Positions 7,404 to 22,334 of a stretch of DNA of 49,932 bases are shown piece by piece. The first letter of the stretch is position 1. The number at the start of each line of letters is the position of its first letter. The notes under the pieces are model-generated. The model saw only the letters and a program-made list of their open reading frames with translations. It was not told where the DNA came from and did no database searches. Where the stretch lies: the NCBI GenBank assembly GCA_025455865.1, contig JALOLS010000006.1:1-49932 (forward strand), given 5' to 3'. This DNA is from Thermoleophilia bacterium. GTDB lineage: Bacteria > Actinomycetota > Thermoleophilia > Miltoncostaeales > Miltoncostaeaceae. A program made the position numbers and the translations under genes.

Positions 7404-10400
7404 CTACCGGACCAGGTCGAAGCGCCCGCCGCCCTCCAGGAAGCGCGCGGGGGTCCGCAGGTCGACGACCCGCACCCGGTAGGCGCCGGTCGGCAGGAGC
7501 CGGGTGGAGAGGTTGACGACGTACTGGCCCGCGCGGGCGTCGAAGCGCATCAGCGGGACGACCCCGCCCGGCGCCGCGGCGGAGCCCTCGTTCTGCCGCC
7601 CGCTCGCCGGCCCGGTGCGCTCCAGCAGGACGAGGGGGAGCAGGCCGGGCACCGGCGCGCCGGCGCAGTCGGTGATCCGGACCTTCAGCGGGATCGTGCT
7701 CCCCCGGCGGAAGTTGCTGCTGCCGTCGGCGTTGACCGGCGCCAGCAGCGGGCTCGTGGCGTAGCGGCGGTCCACCACGGCGGTGGCCTCGGCCCCGGCG
7801 ATGCCGGCGGCGTCGCTCACCTGGACCCGCACGGTGTACCGGCCGGGGGCGGAGTCGTGGGTGCGCCGGGGCTGGGCGCCGAGCGCGGCACCGGCGAAGG
7901 TCTCCACGGTGCCGTCACCCCAGTCCACCCGGACGCGCCACGGGCCGTCCTGCACCCCGGGGTCGACCACCGACAGGTCGAGGGTCACCGCGTTGGCTCC
8001 CCGGCAGGCGGTGCCGGTGGCCCCGCCCAGGGTGAGCCCGGCGACGGTGGGCGCGACGTCGGTGACCGTGACGAGGACCTGGCCGATGGCCGAGCCGCCG
8101 TCCCCGTCGCTCACGTGCACCCGCACGGCCCGCGCGCCATCCTGGGGGAACCCACACGCCGCGCTCGCCCCCGGCTGCGGGCCGGTCTCGAAGACGCCGT
8201 CGTCGTTGCAGTCGAACCGATAGGCGAGCGGGTCGGCCGCCCCGGCCGGATCGGACGCGTCCACCGCCACCGTGGCCGACCCGCCCTCGGACACCGGCCC
8301 GGCGGCGGTCACCCGTGCGATGACCGGGTCGGCGTTGGCCACCTCGACCGTCGCCTGATCGGTCACACAGCGCCCGCCGGGGTCGCAGGCCCGCGCCACC
8401 ACGGTGCGGGTCGCGGGCCCGTCGATCGCGGCGGCCGAGAAGGACGGGGTGGCCCCCGTGGTCTCGAAGGTGCCGTCGCCGTCGAGGTCCCAGCCGATGG
8501 CGGGAGTCAGCGAGCCGAACCCGGCCGCGGTGGCGCCGAGCGGCACCGACCCGCCCTCGGCCACGACGTACGGGCCGGCGGCGTCCACCGACGGGGCGGC
8601 GAGGTCGAGCCCCACCAGCACCGGGTCGTGGTCGGATGAGCGGAACTGGTCCGGCGCATAGAGCGACGTCTGCTGCCCGGCGCTCTTGAAGTTCGTGTTG
8701 TAGTCGAGCGCCAGGGGCTCGTCGGCGTTGATGTGCCACTCCGCGACGCCGGTCACCTGGGGCGCGAGGGTCGGCGAGGCCAGGGCGTGGTCGAGATGGC
8801 CCCACTGCCCGTCGAACACGTAGCTGTAGGCGTCGGGGCCGCCGAACCGGACGACGAGGTTCTCATAGCCCGCGGTCTCGAGGGCCCGGATCGGGTCCTC
8901 CTTGGCGTAGCTGTTGAGGTCGCCGGCGATCAGCACGTCGGCGTCGCCCGAGCCGGTCGGGTCGGTGGCCAGCCAGGCCGCCAGCTCGCGCGCGGCCGCC
9001 GTGCGGGTCAGGTTGCAGTTGCCCTGCCCGTCGCCGGCGTCGGGGTCGGGCCCGGCCGGGGCGGTGGGGTCGTTGTCGGCGCAGGCCGACCCCTTGCTCT
9101 TCAGGTGGTTGGCCACCACGACGACCCGGCCGCCGGTGGCGACCTCGTCGAACGCCTGCGCCAGCGCGGGCCGGTTGCGCTGGATCGGCGCGCCGCCGGT
9201 GCGCGCGAACGGCCCGAAGGCGCCGGTGTCGAGCACGGCAGGGGCGCCGGCCGGGGTCACCCGCGCGGGCCGGTAGAGCATCCCGACCGTGATCGCATCG
9301 GTGCCGAGCGGGCCGCCGGCGTCGACGAAGGCCCAGGTGCCGGGCGCGGTCGCGGCGTTCAGGCGGCCCACCAGGTCCTGGATCGCGCTCTGCGGGCCGA
9401 ACCCGTCGTTCTCGAGCTCGTTGACCGCGACCACGTCGGCGCCGAGGCCGAGGATGGCCGCGACGGTCTTCGGCGCCTGCCGCTCGAGCTCGGCCACGCT
9501 CTCGGCCCCGCGGCAGTCGGTGGCCGTGCCCGTGGTCCCGCACTGGCCGCTCGTGAAGTCATTGAAGTAGTTGAGCAGGTTGAAGCTCGCGACCCGCACG
9601 TCGCCGCCCACGGCCGGCGGCGCCGCCGGGCGCGGGTTGGCGGGCTGGAAGTCGGCCGGCCCGGCGACCTGCAGCCGGTAGGCGCTGAAGCCGAAGCCGA
9701 GCACCCCGCTCACGCCGGTGATCGTGTCGCCGCCACGCAGGGTGTTGGCGGCCGAGAGCGGCTGCCCGCCCCGGGCGAAGCGGATCGGGTCAGGGTTCTG
9801 CCGGTTGGATCCGTCGTCCAGGAGGATCTGGTCGAGGTCGTTCGCGGCCTGCAGGGCGTTCGCCGCCGCCCCCGGCGCCACCACGTCGGTGGGCTGGGCC
9901 AGGCGGGCGCCCGAGGAGAGCAGCACCTCGCCGAAGCGGCCGAGCCCGAAGTGCTCGGTCACCACGAGCCCCTGCGGGAGGGTCACCCGCATGCCCTCGA
10001 GGCGCTCGGGCGACGAGGCGGTGCCGAGGGGGAGCGTCAGCTCGGCGGCGCCGGGCAGGGGGTTGCCCCCCGAGCAGACCTCGATCACCGGGCTGGTGCC
10101 GGCGAGCTGGGTCTGGCCCGAGAACTCGCCGGCCGTCCCGGTGACCCGGACGCGGTCCCCGACCTCGACGGCGGGCGCGGAGGGCGCGAAGACGAAGACG
10201 CCCTCGGAGGTCGACGGATCGGCGTCGGCGTCGGCCTCCTCCTCCTGGACGAAGACGCCGTTGAGCCCGCCCGAGCCCTGGAAGTCACCGACGACGATGC
10301 CCTCGACCGTCGTGACCTGGCCGGCGAGCGGCGTCGTGGCCCCGCTTCCCTGGACCTGGCTGATCGGGGTCGCGGGCGCGCCGCAGGCGTCGGCCCGGTC

Positions 10401-11381
10401 GTCGTCGGTGACCGAGACGGTGACGGATGGCACCGTCAGGCCGGCGAAGGCCGGATCGGCGCTGGAGACCGCGTGGGTGATCGTGCCCGTGTGCGGCCCC
10501 TCGACGGCGGCGTCATCGACGGCGCTCACGGTGACCGTCTGCGGCGTGGTGTCGGTCAGGGTGAGCACGCCGGGAGCGGCGGAGACCTGCGCGTCCGGGC
10601 TGAGGGTGACGACGACCGGCGCCGCGGGCGTGCTCGCGAGGGCGACGGTGTAGGTGTCGGTCGCGCCCCCCTCGGTCACGGCGGTGGTCCCACCGGACTG
10701 CGTGAGGGTGATGCCGGCGGGCACCACCGCGCAGGGGGTCGGTGCGCCCGCGCTGTTCCGGGGGTTCGGTGCGCCCGTCGCGAAGTCGGCGCCGTTCTGG
10801 TCGGTGTCGGTGCAGCCGCCGGCCGCCCGCAGCGCGGCGGTCGTGGTGCTCAGTCCCGGCGCGGCGGAGCCCTCGAAGAAGTTGGCGGTGCCGTAGCCGA
10901 CGAGGTCGCGGATCAGGGCGAGCTGGTCGGGTGAGCAGACCGTCGAGCCGCCGTTGCAGGCCAGCCCGGCGGCCGAGTCGACCAGGGCGACCTTGCCCGC
11001 CGAGCCGGACATGTTGATCGTGCCGGTGACGTCGGGGGCCGGCAGCGGCACGCCGGTCGCCCCGCCGGCGAGCTGCACGAGGAAGCGCTGCCCGGGCGCG
11101 AGCGAGCCGGTGAGGGCGACGACCGGGTTCGCGCCGAAGTTGCCGGTGCCGGTCGCGCTCGCGTACTGGATCGACCTCCCGGCGAGCGACACGGGCGCCG
11201 GCCCCCGGTTGAACAGCTCGACGAAGTCGTTGCTGAAGGGCGCGCCGCTGTTGCCGCCCGCGCCGTAGACCTGGCTGATCACCACATCGGGCGACACGGC
11301 GGCCGCGGGTCCCGCGAGCCCGAGCGCGAGCCCGAGCACACCCACCAGCGCACGCCGCACCACGCGGCCCACCTGCCTCAT
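7404..11381 (-). CDS. Large secreted ExeM/NucH-type nuclease with lamin-tail and PKD-like domains
   Basis: 1325 residues with a signal peptide (about 1-28) ending in AAA. In order: a lamin-tail domain (about 30-150, ISQVYGAGGNSG and FVELFNRG), a Calx-beta-like repeat (about 225-328), an OB-fold segment typical of ExeM proteins (about 338-450), an endonuclease/exonuclease/phosphatase domain (about 595-928), three PKD or immunoglobulin-like domains (about 930-1205) and a C-terminal beta domain. Catalytic motifs are ASFNLLNY, NELEND (Glu655), NHLKSKG (His759), GDLNSY (Asp821) and SSDHDP (His918). It probably degrades extracellular DNA for nutrients or to reshape biofilm. No LPXTG or membrane anchor follows, so release is expected. 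GAGGGG lies nine bases before the ATG. Confidence 0.88.
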   Translation of the reverse strand: MRQVGRVVRRALVGVLGLALGLAGPAAAVSPDVVISQVYGAGGNSGAPFSNDFVELFNRGPAPVSLAGRSIQYASATGTGNFGANPVVALTGSLAPGQRFLVQLAGGATGVPLPAPDVTGTINMSGSAGKVALVDSAAGLACNGGSTVCSPDQLALIRDLVGYGTANFFEGSAAPGLSTTTAALRAAGGCTDTDQNGADFATGAPNPRNSAGAPTPCAVVPAGITLTQSGGTTAVTEGGATDTYTVALASTPAAPVVVTLSPDAQVSAAPGVLTLTDTTPQTVTVSAVDDAAVEGPHTGTITHAVSSADPAFAGLTVPSVTVSVTDDDRADACGAPATPISQVQGSGATTPLAGQVTTVEGIVVGDFQGSGGLNGVFVQEEEADADADPSTSEGVFVFAPSAPAVEVGDRVRVTGTAGEFSGQTQLAGTSPVIEVCSGGNPLPGAAELTLPLGTASSPERLEGMRVTLPQGLVVTEHFGLGRFGEVLLSSGARLAQPTDVVAPGAAANALQAANDLDQILLDDGSNRQNPDPIRFARGGQPLSAANTLRGGDTITGVSGVLGFGFSAYRLQVAGPADFQPANPRPAAPPAVGGDVRVASFNLLNYFNDFTSGQCGTTGTATDCRGAESVAELERQAPKTVAAILGLGADVVAVNELENDGFGPQSAIQDLVGRLNAATAPGTWAFVDAGGPLGTDAITVGMLYRPARVTPAGAPAVLDTGAFGPFARTGGAPIQRNRPALAQAFDEVATGGRVVVVANHLKSKGSACADNDPTAPAGPDPDAGDGQGNCNLTRTAAARELAAWLATDPTGSGDADVLIAGDLNSYAKEDPIRALETAGYENLVVRFGGPDAYSYVFDGQWGHLDHALASPTLAPQVTGVAEWHINADEPLALDYNTNFKSAGQQTSLYAPDQFRSSDHDPVLVGLDLAAPSVDAAGPYVVAEGGSVPLGATAAGFGSLTPAIGWDLDGDGTFETTGATPSFSAAAIDGPATRTVVARACDPGGRCVTDQATVEVANADPVIARVTAAGPVSEGGSATVAVDASDPAGAADPLAYRFDCNDDGVFETGPQPGASAACGFPQDGARAVRVHVSDGDGGSAIGQVLVTVTDVAPTVAGLTLGGATGTACRGANAVTLDLSVVDPGVQDGPWRVRVDWGDGTVETFAGAALGAQPRRTHDSAPGRYTVRVQVSDAAGIAGAEATAVVDRRYATSPLLAPVNADGSSNFRRGSTIPLKVRITDCAGAPVPGLLPLVLLERTGPASGRQNEGSAAAPGGVVPLMRFDARAGQYVVNLSTRLLPTGAYRVRVVDLRTPARFLEGGGRFDLVR

Positions 11382-12209: not shown

Positions 12210-12476
12210 GCCGCCGCGGCCGCCATCCGGGACCTTCTCGCCGCACGCCGCCCGGGCGCGTCGATCTGCCCATCGGAGGCCGCCCGGTGCCTCGATCCGG
12301 AGCGCTGGCGCGACCTCATGCCCGTGGTGCGCGAGGCCGCCGGCCGGCTTCAGGCACGCGGCGAGGTCGAGGTCACCCGTCGCGGCGAACCGGCGGACCC
12401 CCTCGCCCCCGGCGGTCCCATCCGCATCCGGCGGGTGGCGGCTCAGCCGGAGACGAGGCGGACGGCCGGCGAGTAG
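12210..12476 (+). CDS. DUF3253-like protein, no visible start codon
   Basis: The reading frame from about 12210 to the TAG at 12474-12476 encodes a recognisable DUF3253-type domain: RDLLAARRPGASICPSEAAR, WRDLMPVVREAAGRL, GEVEVTRRGEPADP and GGPIRIRR. The order and spacing match the whole family domain (about 70 residues), so it is unlikely to be chance. The frame is open from 12051, but no ATG, GTG, TTG or CTG occurs in it before the domain. It may begin at a rarer codon, be joined by frameshift to the PRC-barrel gene ending at 12202, or be a broken gene. Its tail overlaps the vapC tail by 34 bases. The family has no established function. Confidence 0.55.
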   Translation, partial: AAAAAIRDLLAARRPGASICPSEAARCLDPERWRDLMPVVREAAGRLQARGEVEVTRRGEPADPLAPGGPIRIRRVAAQPETRRTAGE

Positions 12477-12838
12477 CGGGGCCAGGAGGCGTCGGCGGTC
12501 ATCGCCTCGCCCCCGGCGTCGATCGCGGCGCCCAGGATGAGTGCGTCCGGAAGACGGAGCGCCCGGTGCGCCGCGCGCAGGCGGGCCGCCTCCGCGGCCG
12601 CCCCCCGGCTCAGCGGCAGCACGCGCAGCGAGGCGAAGAACGCCTCGGCGGCCTCGGCGGTGGGCCCGCCGATCGCGACGGGGCGCACCATCGCCTCGGC
12701 GTACGCCACCACCGGCACGACGACCTCCTCGCCCTCGGTCCACGCGGCGGCGAGCGCCGCCACCGCCGCGGCGTGGAGCGGATCGTCCCCGTCGAGGGTC
12801 GCGATCAGGATGCTCGCGTCGGCGAGGATCAGCGCCAC
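12443..12838 (-). CDS. vapC: PIN-domain toxin, VapC type
   Basis: 131 residues with the PIN acidic set: Asp7 in LILADASIL, Glu in VVAYAEAM, Asp in LRLPDALILGAAI and the MTADASWPR end motif. VapC proteins are magnesium-dependent ribonucleases that cut tRNA or rRNA when their antitoxin is lost. The ATG overlaps the antitoxin gene by 10 bases, the usual antitoxin-first order. The cellular target cannot be read from the sequence. Confidence 0.87.
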   Translation of the reverse strand: MALILADASILIATLDGDDPLHAAAVAALAAAWTEGEEVVVPVVAYAEAMVRPVAIGGPTAEAAEAFFASLRVLPLSRGAAAEAARLRAAHRALRLPDALILGAAIDAGGEAMTADASWPRYSPAVRLVSG

Positions 12839-13074
12839 TCGTCACGGAGCGCGTCGAGATACCCCGGCGGATAGACGCCGGTCAGCGTGCCGGCGAACCG
12901 CAGGAACGGGTTCTCCACCCGCCGCATGACGATGCGCTCGCCGTCGGCCTCGACACGGAGCACGTCCCCGGGCTCAAGGCCTGCCTGCCGCAGGGCCTCG
13001 ACCGGGATGGTGACCTGATGCTTCGCGGAGATCCGGGTGGTTCCCCGGACGCGTTTCCGTACTTCCTCGCCCAT
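12829..13074 (-). CDS. vapB: AbrB/SpoVT-type antitoxin, VapB-like
   Basis: 81 residues. The N-terminal swapped-hairpin DNA-binding motif reads ISAKHQVTIPVEALRQAGLEPGDVLRVEADGERIVM (split here by function: RISAKHQVTIPVEALR and GLEPGDVLRVEADG). The C-terminal part, with FLRFAGTLTGVYPPGY, should wrap the toxin. Such antitoxins neutralise the PIN toxin and repress their own operon. The ATG lies 10 bases after the ribonuclease stop, and a TAACCT box six bases before the ATG could also give an independent leaderless transcript. Confidence 0.87.
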   Translation of the reverse strand: MGEEVRKRVRGTTRISAKHQVTIPVEALRQAGLEPGDVLRVEADGERIVMRRVENPFLRFAGTLTGVYPPGYLDALRDEWR

Positions 13075-16997: not shown

Positions 16998-17708
16998 GTG
17001 CGCGCCCTCATCGCCCTGGCCACCCTGGCCCTCGTCCCCGCCGCGGCCCATGGGGCCGTGGTCATCGACGGGGAGCCCCTGCCCACGCCGCCGACCGACC
17101 GGCAGGCGTGGACCGCGACGATCCTCGCCCCCGTGCCCGCGCGGGCCGAGCCCCGGGCCTCGGCCCGGGTGGTCCGGCGCCTGAGCGGGCAGACGCCGTT
17201 CAGCAAGCGCACCGAGGTGCTCCTGGTGACCGGCGCGCGGCAGGTCGGCCGCCGGCAGTGGGTCCAGGTGCAGCTCCCCTCGCGCCCGAACGGCGTGACC
17301 GGCTGGGTGCCGGCCGATGCCACGATCCTCTCGCCCACGCCCGTGCGCATCCGCATCCGCCTGGGCGCCAAGCGGGTCGAGGTGTACCGCGCGGGCCGCA
17401 GGGTGGGCAGCTACCGCGCCGCGGTGGGCAAGCCGTCGACGCCGACGCCGGTCGGCCGCTTCGCCGTCTACGACCCGGTCCCCACCGACGGACAGCTCGC
17501 CCCGGTGATCATGGTGCTGACCGCCTACAGCCCGGTCCTCCAGTCGTTCCTGGGCGGCACCGGCGTGTCGGCCATCCACGGCTGGCCGGATCCGGGGGTC
17601 ATGGGGCAGGCCGTGAGCGCCGGCTGCATCCGGCTCTCCCAGCGCGACACCGCCCGGGTCGCCCGGGTGGCCGAGCCCGGCACCCCGGTCACCATCGACC
17701 GCACGTGA
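16998..17708 (+). CDS. L,D-transpeptidase (YkuD domain), exported
   Basis: 236 residues from GTG 16998, with GGAG eight bases upstream. A signal peptide (about 1-20, ending AHGA) is followed by an SH3-like region (about 30-115, WVQVQLPSRPNGVTGWVP) and a YkuD catalytic domain (about 118-236). The active-site block has His in AIHGWPD and Cys in SAGCIRLS, the standard catalytic pair. It should make 3-3 cross-links or attach proteins to peptidoglycan outside the membrane. It is coupled to the next gene by a GTGA overlap and resembles the gene at 18639, with the same domain order. Confidence 0.9.
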   Translation: MRALIALATLALVPAAAHGAVVIDGEPLPTPPTDRQAWTATILAPVPARAEPRASARVVRRLSGQTPFSKRTEVLLVTGARQVGRRQWVQVQLPSRPNGVTGWVPADATILSPTPVRIRIRLGAKRVEVYRAGRRVGSYRAAVGKPSTPTPVGRFAVYDPVPTDGQLAPVIMVLTAYSPVLQSFLGGTGVSAIHGWPDPGVMGQAVSAGCIRLSQRDTARVARVAEPGTPVTIDRT

Positions 17709-18619
17709 GCCTCGGGGCCGGCGGCGCCGGCCCCGTCCCCGACGTCCCCGAGGAGGTCAGGGGGCCCTGGGATCCGCGGGTGCGGGTGTTCCGGGCCGGG
17801 GCCGAGGTGGACGCCTTCTGCGTCGTGGGGGACCGGGCGGTCGCGGTGGTCGACACCATGTCCAGCCCCCAGCTCGCCGAGGGCATGCTCGCGGCGCTGG
17901 GCGACGACCTCACGGGGCGGGCGCTGGTGGTGGTGAACACCCACCAGCACCACGACCACACGTGGGGGAACTGCGCGGTGCCGGCGCCGGTGATCGCCCA
18001 CCCGGCGGGCCCGGCCATCGCCCTCGGCGCGGCGGCCGCGCGGTTCCTGGAGGAGCGGCGCGCGGCGGAGGCGCGGTTCGCGCGGGTGCGGATCGTCCCG
18101 CCCACGGTCACGGTGCCCGACGGGGCCGAGGTGCACCTGGGCGGGCTCACGCTCGTGCTCGTGCACGCGCCCGGGCACACCCCGGACCACCTGGCCGTGT
18201 GGATCCCCGAGCTCCGCCTGCTCCTGCCCGGCGACGCGGCCGAGCACCCCTTCCCCTACGCCGAGGCGCCCGCGGGGCCGGCGGACCTCGCCGTCACCCT
18301 GCGGCGGCTCGCGGCCCTGGACCCCGAGACCGTGCTCCCCTGCCACGGCGGCACGCACGACCCGGGGCTGCTCGCGAGGAACCTGGCCTACCTGGACCGC
18401 GTCATCGCCACCGGCGGCGGCCCCGGGGCTGAAGCGGCGTTCCCATCTGCCGATGCACTCGCCATGAGCGGGACCGACGCCGGTCGCGTGCCGGCCTTCT
18501 ACGCCGACTTCCATCGCCAGAACCTCCTGAACGCGGCGATCGCGCCGGCACCTTCGGGCCGCTCCGAGCGCCCTTCCGCCGAGGTCGCGGTTGATCCGCA
18601 GGCAGGGGATGGGCTTTGA
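17705..18619 (+). CDS. Metallo-beta-lactamase-fold hydrolase
   Basis: 304 residues. The metal-binding motif is NTHQHHDHTWGN (HxHxDH), with HAPGHTPDHLAVW, LLPGDAAEHPFPYAEAP and LPCHGG giving the later ligands. No signal peptide is seen, so the enzyme is probably cytoplasmic. After the fold, about residue 240 onward, a tail contains PAFYADFHRQNLLNAAI, which is seen in some family members. The GTG overlaps the stop of the preceding transpeptidase, and its 3' end lies against the second transpeptidase. The substrate is unknown. A role with cell-wall precursors is suggested only by position. Confidence 0.85.
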   Translation: MSLGAGGAGPVPDVPEEVRGPWDPRVRVFRAGAEVDAFCVVGDRAVAVVDTMSSPQLAEGMLAALGDDLTGRALVVVNTHQHHDHTWGNCAVPAPVIAHPAGPAIALGAAAARFLEERRAAEARFARVRIVPPTVTVPDGAEVHLGGLTLVLVHAPGHTPDHLAVWIPELRLLLPGDAAEHPFPYAEAPAGPADLAVTLRRLAALDPETVLPCHGGTHDPGLLARNLAYLDRVIATGGGPGAEAAFPSADALAMSGTDAGRVPAFYADFHRQNLLNAAIAPAPSGRSERPSAEVAVDPQAGDGL

Positions 18620-18638
18620 TCCCGCGAAGGTGAGGCCC

Positions 18639-19364
18639 GTGTCCCCCCGCACGCTGGTTCCCGTCGCGCTGCTCGCCGGCGCGCTGCTCGCGACCCCGGC
18701 CCTCGCCGAGGACGCCGTCGAGCTGTCGGCGCCCGACGCCGACAGCGCCTGGACCGCGCGCATCCTCTACCCGGTGGCCGGCCGCGCGGCGCCGCGTCCC
18801 CGCGCCCGGGTGGTCGGCGGGCTGGTGCACTACACCGCGTTCTCGCGCCGGCCCCAGGTGCTGATGGTGACCGGGAGCGCCACCGACGACTCGGGGCGCG
18901 ACTGGGTGCGGGTCCAGCTCCCGCGCCGGCCCAACGGATCCTCGGCCTGGGTGCCGCAGGACGCCGTGCAGCTCCAGTCCACCGGCGTCCGGCTGCGGGT
19001 GCGCCTGCGGGCACGCAAGGTCGAGGTCTGGCGTGACGGCCGGCGCACCCACTCCTACCGCGCCGCGGTCGGGACCGGGGGCACGCCGACCCCGCGGGGC
19101 CTGTTCGCGATCCAGGACCCGGTGGTCGCCGGCGAGCACCAGCGCAGCTACCTCGGGCCCTACATCCTCACCCTCACCGCCCACTCCACGGTGCTCCGGG
19201 AGTTCATGGGCGGCAACGGCCTGGTGGCCATCCACGGCACCAACGCCCCCGGCCTGCTCGGCCAGGCGGTGAGCAACGGGTGCGTGCGGGTGGCGAACGA
19301 CACCATCCGCGCCCTCTGGCGGGTCGCCCGCCCGGGGACGCCGGTGGAGGTCGTCAACACCTAG
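18639..19364 (+). CDS. Second L,D-transpeptidase (YkuD domain), exported
   Basis: 241 residues from GTG 18639, preceded by AAGGTGAGG. An in-frame ATG at 18609 would add ten residues and overlap the hydrolase gene. The signal peptide ends near ATPALAED. An SH3-like region (WVRVQLPRRPNGSSAWVP) precedes the catalytic domain, with His in AIHGTNAPG and Cys in SNGCVRV. The arrangement and linker are clearly related to the gene at 16998, which suggests duplication with divergence. It should act on peptidoglycan cross-linking. Confidence 0.88.
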   Translation: MSPRTLVPVALLAGALLATPALAEDAVELSAPDADSAWTARILYPVAGRAAPRPRARVVGGLVHYTAFSRRPQVLMVTGSATDDSGRDWVRVQLPRRPNGSSAWVPQDAVQLQSTGVRLRVRLRARKVEVWRDGRRTHSYRAAVGTGGTPTPRGLFAIQDPVVAGEHQRSYLGPYILTLTAHSTVLREFMGGNGLVAIHGTNAPGLLGQAVSNGCVRVANDTIRALWRVARPGTPVEVVNT

Positions 19365-19733: not shown

Positions 19734-19746
19734 AATGAGAGTCATT
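19734..19746. promoter_or_regulatory. Fur/Zur-like operator 1
   Basis: Perfect palindrome AATGA-GAG-TCATT in the only AT-rich patch of the region, upstream of the small exported gene and cobW. It lies just before the putative -10 and matches operator 2 (21841-21853, reverse orientation) at 10 of 13 positions. The ATGA/TCAT core is typical of Fur-family sites. Confidence 0.6.
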
Positions 19747-19750
19747 CTTA

Positions 19751-19756
19751 TAACCT
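19751..19756 (+). promoter_or_regulatory. Putative -10 box (TAACCT) of the zinc locus
   Basis: The hexamer lies five bases after operator 1. A regulator bound there would block RNA polymerase. Confidence 0.4.
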
Positions 19757-19794
19757 GGCGCGTCCTGCCATCACGACGATGTCCGTGAGGTCAA

Positions 19795-20069
19795 GTGAGT
19801 CGAGGTGTCGCCCTGCTCGGCACAAGCGTCGCCCTGGCGGTCACCGCGACCCCGGTGGTCGCCGGTGGGAGCGACCACCCCCGGCAGGCCGGGGTGCAGG
19901 TCACCGGGGGCGCCCGGTGTCCCAGCCGCGCGTCGTCGCGGGCGGGGGTCGGCGGGTGCAGATGGGCGACGCCGTCGCGGGCCGGGTGGTCGAGCTCGGC
20001 ACCGACCCGCTCGGGGTCTCCGGCGACGAGGCCGCCTCGGACGCCGTCCCGCCCCGCCCCCGCGCATGA
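19795..20069 (+). pseudogene. Small exported protein gene with an apparent frameshift
   Basis: From GTG 19795, with GAGG just upstream, the frame encodes a signal-peptide-like start, SRGVALLGTSVALAVTAT then PVVAGGS, and reads naturally to about 19915. After that it becomes arginine/serine-rich, while another frame reads VQMGDAVAGRVVELGTDPLG and ends in PRPRA at the TGA 20067-20069. Joining the two frames near the G/C runs at about 19905-19930 would give a secreted protein of about 90 residues. A real frameshift, an assembly error or two unrelated pieces are all possible. It lies between the putative operator and cobW. Confidence 0.4.
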
Positions 20070-20096
20070 CATGCGCCCGAAGGAGGAGAACCCCCG

Positions 20097-21353
20097 ATGC
20101 CCCAGAGCGCTGAGCGACTTCCCGTCACCGTCCTCTCCGGCTTCCTCGGCGCCGGCAAGACCAGCCTGCTCAACCATGTGCTGACCAACCGCGAGGGCCG
20201 CCGGGTGGCGGTCATCGTCAACGACATGAGCGAGGTCAACATCGACGCCCAGTTGGTGCGCGACGGCGACGCGGCCCTCTCGCGGCAGGAGGAGCGCCTG
20301 GTCGAGATGACCAACGGCTGCATCTGCTGCACCCTTCGGGAGGACCTGCTCGAGGAGGTCGCCCGCCTGGCGCGCGAGGGCCGCTTCGACTACCTGCTGA
20401 TCGAGAGCACCGGGATCTCCGAGCCTCTGCCGGTCGCCCAGACCTTCACCTTCGCCGACGACACCGGGCGCTCGCTGTCGGATCTCGCCCGGCTCGACAC
20501 GATGGTCACCGTCGTGGACGCCCTCGGCTTCTGGGATGAGCTCGCTGAGGCCGACGACCTGGACTCGCGCGGGCTGGCGCTCGGGCCGGAGGACGAGCGC
20601 ACGATCGCCGACCTGCTGATCGAGCAGGTGGAGTTCGCCGACGTCGTCGTCATCACGAAGGAGGACCTGGCCGGGGCGGAGCAGACCGCCCGGGTCGAGC
20701 AGGTGGTGCGCGGGCTGAATCCCGGCGCGGTGGTGGTCCGCGCCCGGCACGGGAGGATCCCCCTCGACCTGGTGCTCGACACCGGACGCTTCGACATCGA
20801 CGAGGCGTCGCGGTCGGCCGCCTGGGTGCGCGAGCTCGAGGGCACACACGTGCCGGAGACCGAGGAGTACGGGATCTCGAGCACCGTCTTCCGTGCCCGC
20901 CGGCCCTTCCACCCGGAGCGGCTGCATCGATTCCTGACCGAGTCCGACGCTTGGGACGGCGTCGTCCGGTCCAAGGGGTTCTTCTGGCTCGCGACACGAC
21001 CGGCGGTCACCTGGCACTGGTCCCAGGCGGGTGGCGCGTGCACCTTCCATCCGGCGGGCCGGTGGTGGGCATCGGTCGAGCCGTCGGAGTGGCCGGACGA
21101 CCCGGAGCTGCGCGACGAGATCCTCGACCGCTGGGATCCGCGCTTCGGCGACCGCACGCAGGAGCTTGTCTTCATCGGGACCGGGATCGACGCGGCGGGG
21201 ATCCAGACGGCGCTCGGGCGCTGCCTGGCCGACGACGCCGAGATGGCGGCCGGTGCCCAGGCATCGGCCTCGCTCAGGGACCCCTTCCCCCCGGATGGCA
21301 GCGAGGAGCACGACGCGCCTGCGGTCCACGTGTCCCAGGACCACGGGGCGTAG
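20097..21353 (+). CDS. CobW/COG0523-family GTPase, probable zinc metallochaperone
   Basis: 418 residues from the ATG at 20097, with GGAGGAG upstream. Walker A is GFLGAGKT (15-22). The metal-binding motif CICC is at 75-78 in [20 protein letters not shown] and VVITKED are further GTPase motifs. The CobW C-terminal domain (about 265-390) contains [15 protein letters not shown] and FWLATRP, and the tail has a few His residues. COG0523 proteins load metals into client enzymes, and those controlled by Zur respond to zinc shortage. The neighbouring histidine-rich protein, Fur-family regulator and operator-like sites make zinc the most likely metal. Confidence 0.9.
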
Positions 21354-21427
21354 CGGCGCCCGGCGGCGGGAACAGGAGCCAGTCCCGTCTGCTTGGCCGG
21401 AACCCCCGCGTGCGGAACGATCCGTCC

Positions 21428-21778
21428 ATGAGCGCACATCACACCACTCACCCCGGCCACGCGCACACGCACGGGCCGGGCTGCGGACACACCGCCATCG
21501 CCCACGACGACCATGTGGACTACCTGCACGACGGCCACCTGCACCACCCCCACGCAGACCACGTCGACGAGCACGAGCTCGCCCCCGGCGCGGCGAACCC
21601 CGACCGGTGCACGCCCGACCACGCCTGCGGCGGACACGAGGAGGGTCACGTGCACGGCCCGGGGTGCGGGCATGATGCGGTGCCGCACGCCGGGCACGTC
21701 GACTACCTGGTGGCCGGCCACCTCCACCACCCGCACAACGATCACTGCGACGACCACGGACCGGTGACGACCGTCTGA
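21428..21778 (+). CDS. Histidine-rich tandem-repeat metal-binding protein
   Basis: 116 residues, about one quarter His. Two imperfect repeats are visible: HGPGCGH-(5)-H-(2)-HVDYLHDGHLHHPH at about 15-45 and again HGPGCGH-(5)-H-(2)-HVDYLVAGHLHHPH at about 78-108. Each holds one Cys within HGPGCGH, and a third Cys pair lies between them in DRCTPDHACGGH. No signal peptide is present, so it is probably a cytoplasmic zinc buffer or store. Similar short proteins are sometimes mis-named as transporters or dehydratases in databases. It lies between the GTPase and the Fur-family gene and ends just before a hairpin. Confidence 0.8.
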   Translation: MSAHHTTHPGHAHTHGPGCGHTAIAHDDHVDYLHDGHLHHPHADHVDEHELAPGAANPDRCTPDHACGGHEEGHVHGPGCGHDAVPHAGHVDYLVAGHLHHPHNDHCDDHGPVTTV

Positions 21779-21780
21779 GG

Positions 21781-21818
21781 CGGGCGGGGCGGGGCGGGGC
21801 GCTGCTCCGCCCCGCCCG
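21781..21818 (+). terminator. Terminator hairpin after the histidine-rich gene
   Basis: Twelve-base perfect arms (21781-21792 and 21807-21818), right after the stop codon. GGGGC repeats in the loop allow alternative pairings. Confidence 0.6.
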
Positions 21819-21836
21819 AACGAACGAACGAACGAA
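21817..21836. repeat. (CGAA)5 tetranucleotide repeat
   Basis: Five tandem CGAA units between the terminator and the Fur-family promoter. A slippage-prone repeat here could change spacing upstream of operator 2. Confidence 0.8.
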
Positions 21837-21840
21837 CGGG

Positions 21841-21853
21841 AACGGATCTCATT
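21841..21853. promoter_or_regulatory. Fur/Zur-like operator 2
   Basis: On the minus strand the site reads AATGAGATCCGTT and matches operator 1 at 10 of 13 positions. It is embedded in a GGGAA-(9)-TTCCC inverted repeat (21838-21856) and ends eight bases before the -10 of the regulator gene, which suggests autoregulation. Confidence 0.5.
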
Positions 21854-21860
21854 CCCGTGA

Positions 21861-21866
21861 TAGCCT
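21861..21866 (+). promoter_or_regulatory. -10 box (TAGCCT) of the Fur-family gene
   Basis: The hexamer ends six bases before the ATG at 21873, consistent with a leaderless transcript. Confidence 0.5.
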
Positions 21867-21872
21867 GACGGG

Positions 21873-22334
21873 ATGGATCCCGCTGTGCGCGACGGCTGGC
21901 TCGAGCGTGCGCACGCCTCCCTGGTCGCCGCGGGGCTCCGGCTGGGTGCGGCGCGGACCGGGGTGGTCGAGGTCCTCGCCCGTGACGGCCAATGCCTCAT
22001 CGAGGCCAGGGAGATCATCGACCGCCTGCGGGAGCGGGGTGGCCCGGGGTCGGCGGCGTCGGTCTACCGGGTGCTGGACGAGCTCCGCGGCCTGGGGCTC
22101 GTGCGGCGCGACGCCGACCCCGACGGCGGCGGGCGATACGAGATCGTCTTCGCCGCTGCCCACCACCACCACTTCGTCGACGTCGAGTCCGGCTCGATCG
22201 AGTCGTTCATCGACGAGGGGCTCGAGGCGGCCATCCAGGAGGCCGGCCGCCGCCTCGGCGTGCGACTCACCGGCCATTCGGTGGAGCTCAGGGGCACCCG
22301 GACGCGGCCGCAGAGCGCGCAGGAGCGACCCTGA
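21873..22334 (+). CDS. Fur-family transcriptional regulator, probable Zur
   Basis: 153 residues. The N-terminal winged helix (about 8-85) has GLRLGAARTGVVEVLA, CLIEAREIIDRLRER and SAASVYRVLDELRGLGLV. The metal and dimer domain (about 90-150) has HHHHFVDVESGSIESF. The usual CxxC structural zinc pairs are missing: positions that are often Cys are Glu and Ser in this motif, and only one Cys (Cys41) is present. It should repress zinc-uptake genes when zinc is bound. Zinc specificity is inferred from the CobW and histidine-rich neighbours, so iron or peroxide sensing cannot be excluded from sequence alone. Confidence 0.85.
   Translation: MDPAVRDGWLERAHASLVAAGLRLGAARTGVVEVLARDGQCLIEAREIIDRLRERGGPGSAASVYRVLDELRGLGLVRRDADPDGGGRYEIVFAAAHHHHFVDVESGSIESFIDEGLEAAIQEAGRRLGVRLTGHSVELRGTRTRPQSAQERP

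Follow-up and report, generated by a model that had tools for sequence, protein, structure and literature searches.

Zur regulons are described in Streptomyces coelicolor, Mycobacterium and Bacillus, where znuABC and COG0523 genes are targets; the Zur boxes of S. coelicolor are 15 bp long with a 7-1-7 architecture (PMC11077047), and Zur of this species is autoregulated (PMC6103462). The sensory sites of Zur have an N2OS composition, and all three Zur proteins with solved structures have a Cys4 structural zinc site, which is also well conserved in other Zur proteins (PMC6103462). Fur-family zinc regulators are usually recognised by this Cys4 site together with the sensory Cys. ZigA-type GTPases, which belong to COG0523, respond to zinc depletion with strong induction in other bacteria (PMC10563805; PMC11834433), and a ZigA relative is the most induced gene of Burkholderia cenocepacia in zinc starvation (PMC10563805). 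About 40% of COG0523 proteins carry a His-rich stretch within their own sequence (PMC2770081). Here we analysed positions 19734-22334 of a 49,932-nt stretch (the window; contig JALOLS010000006.1, assembly GCA_025455865.1) from the 3.16-Mb genome of a Thermoleophilia bacterium, a member of a little-studied actinobacterial lineage of soils. For this stretch the original prediction had proposed one self-regulated zinc-shortage unit made of a COG0523 GTPase, a His-rich store and a Fur-family repressor. The zinc-box sites and the idea of a zinc unit hold, and the locus likely forms a self-regulated unit, repressed by zinc, within a Zur-type regulon. The combination of a Zur box with a COG0523 gene is known from the systems above, while the regulator without Cys4, its putative relocated Cys and its link to a His-rich partner make the present locus a new version of such systems. 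The features of the locus, all on the forward strand, are as follows.

19736..19750, +, Zur-type 7-1-7 operator box TGAGAGTCATTCTTA, 15 bp, before zigA, with two mismatches to the consensus TGAGAATnATTCTCA
19749..19754, +, candidate -10 element TATAAC at the end of the box, whose last bases it overlaps, with no clear -35 element
19761..20096, +, unusually long untranslated zigA leader, its start assumed from the -10 element
20097..21353, +, ZigA, COG0523 zinc metallochaperone GTPase (NCBIfam equivalog), 418 aa, with an NGCICC motif
21428..21778, +, HisW, 116 aa by translation, with 29 His and 5 Cys and two repeats
21781..21818, +, GC-rich 17-bp hairpin with no T-run, between the HisW and FurW genes
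21837..21851, +, degenerate second operator box CGGGAACGGATCTCA, lying 21 nt ahead of the start codon of furW
21861..21866, +, candidate -10 element of furW (TAGCCT), 6 nt from its start codon
21873..22334, +, FurW, regulator of the Fur family that lacks the structural Cys4 zinc site, with invariant C41, E90, H98 and H100

Both operator-like sites of the original prediction were found where it had placed them. The arms AATGA/TCATT of AATGAGAGTCATT at 19734-19746 are perfect, and the minus-strand sequence AATGAGATCCGTT at 21841-21853 agrees with AATGAGAGTCATT at 10 of 13 positions, as claimed. These 13-mers mark real elements in the wrong register; after comparison with relatives the 13-mer was dropped for the 7-1-7 form, which places the proper boxes at 19736-19750 and 21837-21851. 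By the 13-mer criterion alone the sites were not significant (three window matches at ≤3 mismatches against 0.97 expected, a number equalled in 10 of 100 shuffles), as would be expected if they were chance matches and the gene cluster accidental. This explanation is extremely unlikely, because it is contradicted by the restriction of the boxes to zinc genes across the genome, by an independent weight matrix and by a conserved position in relatives; the first two of these, and not the 13-mer criterion, are the grounds on which the pair of sites was accepted as real.

Pattern searches covered the whole genome, with the reversed box as a control. At ≤1 mismatch AATGANANTCATT occurred at only three places (control 0), one preceding this zigA and the others preceding a COG0523 gene and znuA on contig C55 (here and below, C denotes contigs, L loci and G genomes, G000 being the source genome and all other G numbers related genomes). 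The 7-1-7 palindrome TGAGAATnATTCTCA at ≤2 mismatches occurred at four sites (control 0), preceding znuA-1, znuA-2, a second COG0523 GTPase gene and zigA, so that this genome has a 7-1-7 palindrome of 15 bp that is confined to zinc genes. The weight matrix was trained only on 33 boxes, all from other genomes (lowest training-box score 15.5), and was applied to 428 kb of the source genome. It ranked the boxes of znuA-1 (29.8), znuA-2 (23.4), the second COG0523 gene (23.4) and site 1 before zigA (23.4) first, followed by a box before a gene for an FAD-protein on C186 (19.6) and by site 2 before furW (12.7), and the best remaining score was 10.9, inside coding sequence. The box itself is like that of the known Zur regulon in length, architecture and targets (znuABC and COG0523 genes); the differences are the consensus TGAGAATnATTCTCA, a candidate reader without Cys4 and hinge Cys, a His-rich gene linked to the regulator, and box targets without ribosomal-protein paralogues (the only four sites at ≤2 mismatches all belong to zinc transport or COG0523 genes). 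No Zur study on Thermoleophilia was found in the openly licensed literature, a search that did not cover most subscription journals; a first operator consensus and regulon outline for this class are given here.

The fifth-ranking box, CGAGAACGGTTCTCA at G000:C186:30117-30131 (L136; three mismatches, 19.6 bits), precedes a gene for an FAD/NAD(P)-binding protein of the NAD_binding_9 family. Because it lies before a gene, and because genes similar to it stand close to zigA or hisW, or directly beside them, in both G005 and G019, this box is probably real. Two other sites with three mismatches, on C91 and C134, both lie inside coding sequence and were rejected as chance matches.

Positions 7445-11363 of C55 (L048) contain the second COG0523 GTPase gene and an operon of the znuABC type, both of which have a separate box (TGGGAATGAGTCTCA at 8804 and TGAGAATGATTCTCA at 11349). 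This is the main zinc-uptake locus of the source genome. The label MRF was rejected for its COG0523 paralogue (24.5 against 375 bits in NCBIfam), which is called the second COG0523 GTPase instead.

The COG0523 GTPase with a CICC motif that had been claimed for the window is ZigA. It scored 613.9 bits against NCBIfam NF038288 (equivalog cut-off 600) with 390 of 390 profile positions covered, and the Pfam domains cobW and CobW_C, above their cut-offs, as well as the G3E GTPase domain and the CxCC motif were present. With the ZigA of Acinetobacter baumannii and its relatives (NF038288) it shares the equivalog match over the full profile, the CICC motif and control by a zinc-type box. In contrast to known ZigA systems, the partners here are a His-rich protein and a Fur-type regulator, and not folE2, queD or a carbonic anhydrase. 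Control of zigA by the zinc box is supported. A strict scan for sigma-70 promoters and terminators found no full promoter and no terminator, and the TATAAC element is therefore given as a candidate only. The distance from box to zigA in relatives is about 25-100 nt, and the leader in the window is much longer. A reading frame within it (~19795-20067) had been taken for the remnant of a small exported gene. It has no relative among the 41 other genomes of the source family in which relatives were sought, and its GC content at the three codon positions (0.70/0.81/0.88) is unlike that of the neighbouring genes, whose second positions have 0.44-0.51; for both reasons this claim was abandoned and the frame is considered part of a non-coding leader. 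A search against Rfam revealed no family in the leader, and gave one weak match to DUF1874 RNA inside furW (E 0.21, below gathering).

The His-rich stretch of many COG0523 proteins is absent from this ZigA. The His-rich repeat protein expected from the original prediction is present as HisW, whose two repeats are of the type HGPxCGHxAxxHxxHVDYLxxGHLHHPHxDHxDxH; it has no evident signal peptide, and no Pfam or NCBIfam model fits. A paralogue is encoded on C97 of the source genome. Outside Actinobacteria, HisW is 66-78% identical in the best stretches to proteins of the CGHxAxxHxxHVDYLxxGHLHHPH type on plasmids of Pantoea, Cupriavidus and Paraburkholderia. These proteobacterial relatives are annotated only as hypothetical, while HisW is here paired with a Fur-family regulator. 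They are encoded beside znuABC, beside COG0523 and WD40 genes, or beside an ArsR/SmtB regulator, so the link between HisW and metal genes crosses phyla. The protein was proposed as a zinc store. Its membership of the zinc neighbourhood stands, and its more likely role is that of a buffer or donor of zinc produced when zinc is scarce. HisW, found from Actinobacteria to Proteobacteria beside zinc-uptake and COG0523 genes, is a specific candidate for the relay partner of COG0523 chaperones. A gene for a WD40-repeat protein follows the COG0523 gene both in G019, an actinobacterial genome (L041, 12222-13262), and on a Paraburkholderia plasmid that also bears a HisW relative (L147, 2596-3627).

The neighbourhoods of 21 distinct FurW genes, window included, were compared. 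HisW adjoins FurW in 15 of the 21 loci (window, L040, L041, L055, L096, L098-L101, L104, L106-L108, L141 and L142), and a znu, zigA or other COG0523 gene is close by in most. The exact order ZigA, His-rich protein and Fur regulator was found in the window only (the nearest arrangement is HisW-FurW-ZigA-ZnuA in G005), and what is constant is the HisW/FurW pair. These associations support the view that the His-rich gene and the Fur-family gene belong to the zinc neighbourhood. Genes of the YibE/F family also recur near boxes, zigA or FurW in relatives (L041, L047 and L099). On C97 (L049, 8264-10414), a FurW paralogue with Cys4 is grouped with a membrane protein of the YibE/F family and another His-rich protein, near znuA-znuB.

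Site 2 stands sixth in the 428 kb, behind five zinc-linked boxes and above the best background score, and a score of 12.7 was reached by an intergenic stretch in 0.06% of simulated trials with sequence of the same composition (chance 0.0006). For the comparison of 18 FurW loci, the matrix was retrained without any sites upstream of furW. A box was then found ≤90 nt before the furW start in 11 of the 18, at 13-22 nt in 10 of them; nine related FurW loci have the box at 13-22 nt. In L040, L055 and L099 the box precedes the upstream hisW, and in L106 and L107 it precedes znuA, which itself lies before furW. By its matrix rank and the box at 13-22 nt in relatives, site 2 is predicted to be a weak but positionally conserved operator, and a box at this conserved distance makes autoregulation of furW probable.

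The candidate -10 element of furW belongs to a TAnnnT pattern lying 6-7 nt before the start codon, with similar spacing in L138, L139, L141 and L142; because of this position, the pattern suggests that furW transcripts are leaderless. The hairpin between the HisW and FurW genes has a folding energy of -42.2 kcal/mol (z = -5.2 against shuffles). The hairpin and the separate promoter with its box indicate that furW probably has its own transcript, and that the locus probably has two promoters rather than being one unit. In this respect the proposal of one self-regulated zinc-shortage unit is retained for the zinc-box control and the probable autoregulation, and is replaced for its organisation. 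Five ACGA-type units stand head-to-tail between the hairpin and the second box (21819-21838), either as a possible spacer of variable length or by chance.

FurW has the winged helix and dimerisation domain of the Fur superfamily. It matched PF01475 with 69.4 bits (gathering cut-off 23.1), and its AlphaFold2 model, which is confident (pLDDT 85.5), had Fur, Mur and PerR as top fold matches. Alignment and tree revealed that both CxxC pairs of the Cys4 site are missing in all FurW orthologues; the lone CxxC of L103 sits in the N-terminal domain. The hinge Cys of Zur (C79 of S. coelicolor Zur) is also absent. Near its place FurW has E90, as does the paralogue Fur97a, whereas canonical actinobacterial Zur proteins have a Cys there, which is kept in the Zur-like protein C97b of the source genome. 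The assignment of the regulator to the Fur family and its place in a zinc neighbourhood are confirmed, and without Cys4 and hinge Cys it is not a standard Zur. A Cys occupies the C41 column in 40 of 40 aligned clade members, and Glu occupies E90 in those members that cover the column; in an alignment of nine sequences C41, E90, H98, H99, H100, E118 and H135 are invariant. Judged from these alignments, C41, E90, H98 and H100 could form an N2OS site (one S, one O and two N) in which the Cys has been relocated.

The loss of the structural CxxC pairs is shared with the Fur proteins of Pseudomonas aeruginosa and Magnetospirillum, the latter of which also has a stretch 'HLIDV.S' similar to that of FurW. 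These proteins sense iron or manganese, whereas FurW is tied to zinc genes and has an invariant Cys adjoining the position of His33, a metal ligand of E. coli Fur. FurW might be thought to sense manganese, iron or peroxide and to couple that signal to zinc genes, since its sequence and fold match best to Fur, Mur and PerR, Glu stands at the position of Fur E81 and the Zur hinge Cys is absent. Nevertheless, all box targets of known function in the source genome are zinc genes, and an invariant Cys in the putative site would favour zinc over iron or manganese, judging from the N2OS composition of Zur sites (PMC6103462). We consider a signal other than zinc improbable.

In the tree FurW forms a single clade (support 100/98), nested in a larger clade of Thermoleophilia proteins, most of which otherwise retain Cys4. 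A sister group of four members also lacks Cys4 and is joined to FurW with support 98/94; because both share the absence, the loss of Cys4 may have been a single event. Phylum-wide search at E ≤ 1e-20 gave no FurW hits outside Thermoleophilia, and by these hits and the tree FurW is a member of a Thermoleophilia-specific clade. Among the carriers with names are Conexibacter sp. CPCC 206217, a Patulibacter metagenome-assembled genome, Solirubrobacter phytolaccae and S. deserti. The members of the sister group (L109, L110, L111 and L128) have no HisW neighbour, and two of them have an adjacent YibE/F gene.

There are three candidate zinc regulators in the source genome: FurW, the Cys4 paralogue Fur97a (C97:19299-19652) and the canonical Zur-like C97b (C97:23479-23835). 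The related drafts used for the comparison of regulators are 92-97% complete, which lends the conclusions from it some uncertainty. In G014, FurW is the single Fur-family protein detected, and four boxes are present at ≤2 mismatches (control 0), two of which precede zigA and znuA. G003, also with four boxes, has FurW and two regulators of other kinds, with no protein of the Fur97a or canonical Zur type detected, and G009, G026 and G030 have FurW and a Cys4 paralogue only, with boxes present. Because G014 keeps its boxes before zigA and znuA with FurW alone detected, FurW probably reads the box. The boxes persist in all five genomes without a canonical Zur-like protein, which is thus not needed for them, and FurW probably suffices.

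The strongest competitor is Fur97a, which could be the true Zur and the main reader of the boxes, leaving FurW as a secondary or tuning regulator of hisW-furW or as a weak binder. It lies beside znuA/znuB on C97, its closest relative in the PDB is M. tuberculosis Zur, boxes lie beside it in L124, L125 and L127, and the hits of the FurW/Fur97a clade in 181 of 299 genomes of the class are mostly of the Fur97a type. However, G014 and G003 have four boxes each and no Fur97a, and the box before furW suggests autoregulation by FurW, though Fur97a could bind the same box. We regard a leading role of Fur97a as unlikely. For C97b, with FurW having some other target, the probability is much lower. M. 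tuberculosis Zur is the nearest match of C97b (E 9e-27), and C97b has both hinge Cys and Cys4, but its orthologue was not found at 1e-15 in G003, G005, G009, G014, G026 and G030. These six genomes all have boxes, and no protein of its type is among their listed Fur-family members. Moreover, its recognition helix reads TVER, against the [AT][ST]VYR common to FurW and Fur97a.

Several points weigh against FurW as the zinc-responsive reader of both boxes. Two other candidate zinc regulators, one a Fur with Cys4 on C97 and the other the canonical Zur-like protein, are present in the same genome. The drafts of G003 and G014 are 95-96% complete and may therefore lack a regulator that the organisms possess, and furW in these two genomes has neither a HisW neighbour nor a box of its own. 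In the PDB, FurW is most similar to Fur, Mur and PerR and not to Zur, whether by sequence or by fold, and when FurW is aligned to E. coli Fur without gaps, C41 pairs with His32 and not with the adjacent His33. Finally, site 2 scores lower than every box of the training set (12.7 against a minimum of 15.5).

Taking FurW as the probable reader, we infer that it binds DNA and represses with zinc as the signal. When zinc is sufficient, zinc-loaded FurW, possibly aided by the Cys4 paralogue on C97, would bind both boxes. At 19736-19750 the box overlaps the candidate -10 element of a zigA-hisW transcript, and binding there would repress zigA-hisW; the weaker box, at 21837-21851, lies upstream of the predicted leaderless promoter of furW, and binding there would repress furW. 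In zinc shortage FurW, predicted to sense zinc via C41, E90, H98 and H100, would lose its metal and release the DNA, and both transcripts would be derepressed. ZigA would then act as a GTP-dependent chaperone handing scarce zinc to essential clients, and HisW might buffer or relay zinc as a protein of its own, in place of the His-rich stretch built into many COG0523 proteins. The two znu transport loci, the second COG0523 GTPase and probably the FAD-linked oxidoreductase would be controlled through this box as well.

More tentatively, and with somewhat less than even confidence, FurW may represent an undescribed design of zinc sensor, Zur-like in function, in which Cys4 was dropped and the N2OS site was rebuilt with a Cys of the DNA-binding domain near the position of Fur His33, and which serves as the sole Fur-family regulator in some Thermoleophilia and is bound genetically to a His-rich partner in most carrier lineages. 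If so, structural zinc would be dispensable and the sensory site could be rebuilt within the Fur family, and such genes would become recognisable among annotations that now read only 'Fur family'.

Two further gene pairs were noticed in the window. Directly upstream of the zinc unit are tandem L,D-transpeptidase (YkuD) genes at 17004-17705 and 18591-19361, which are 52% identical, and at 12443-13074 there is a small gene pair that, judged by eye, resembles an AbrB-type antitoxin with a PIN-type (VapC) toxin.

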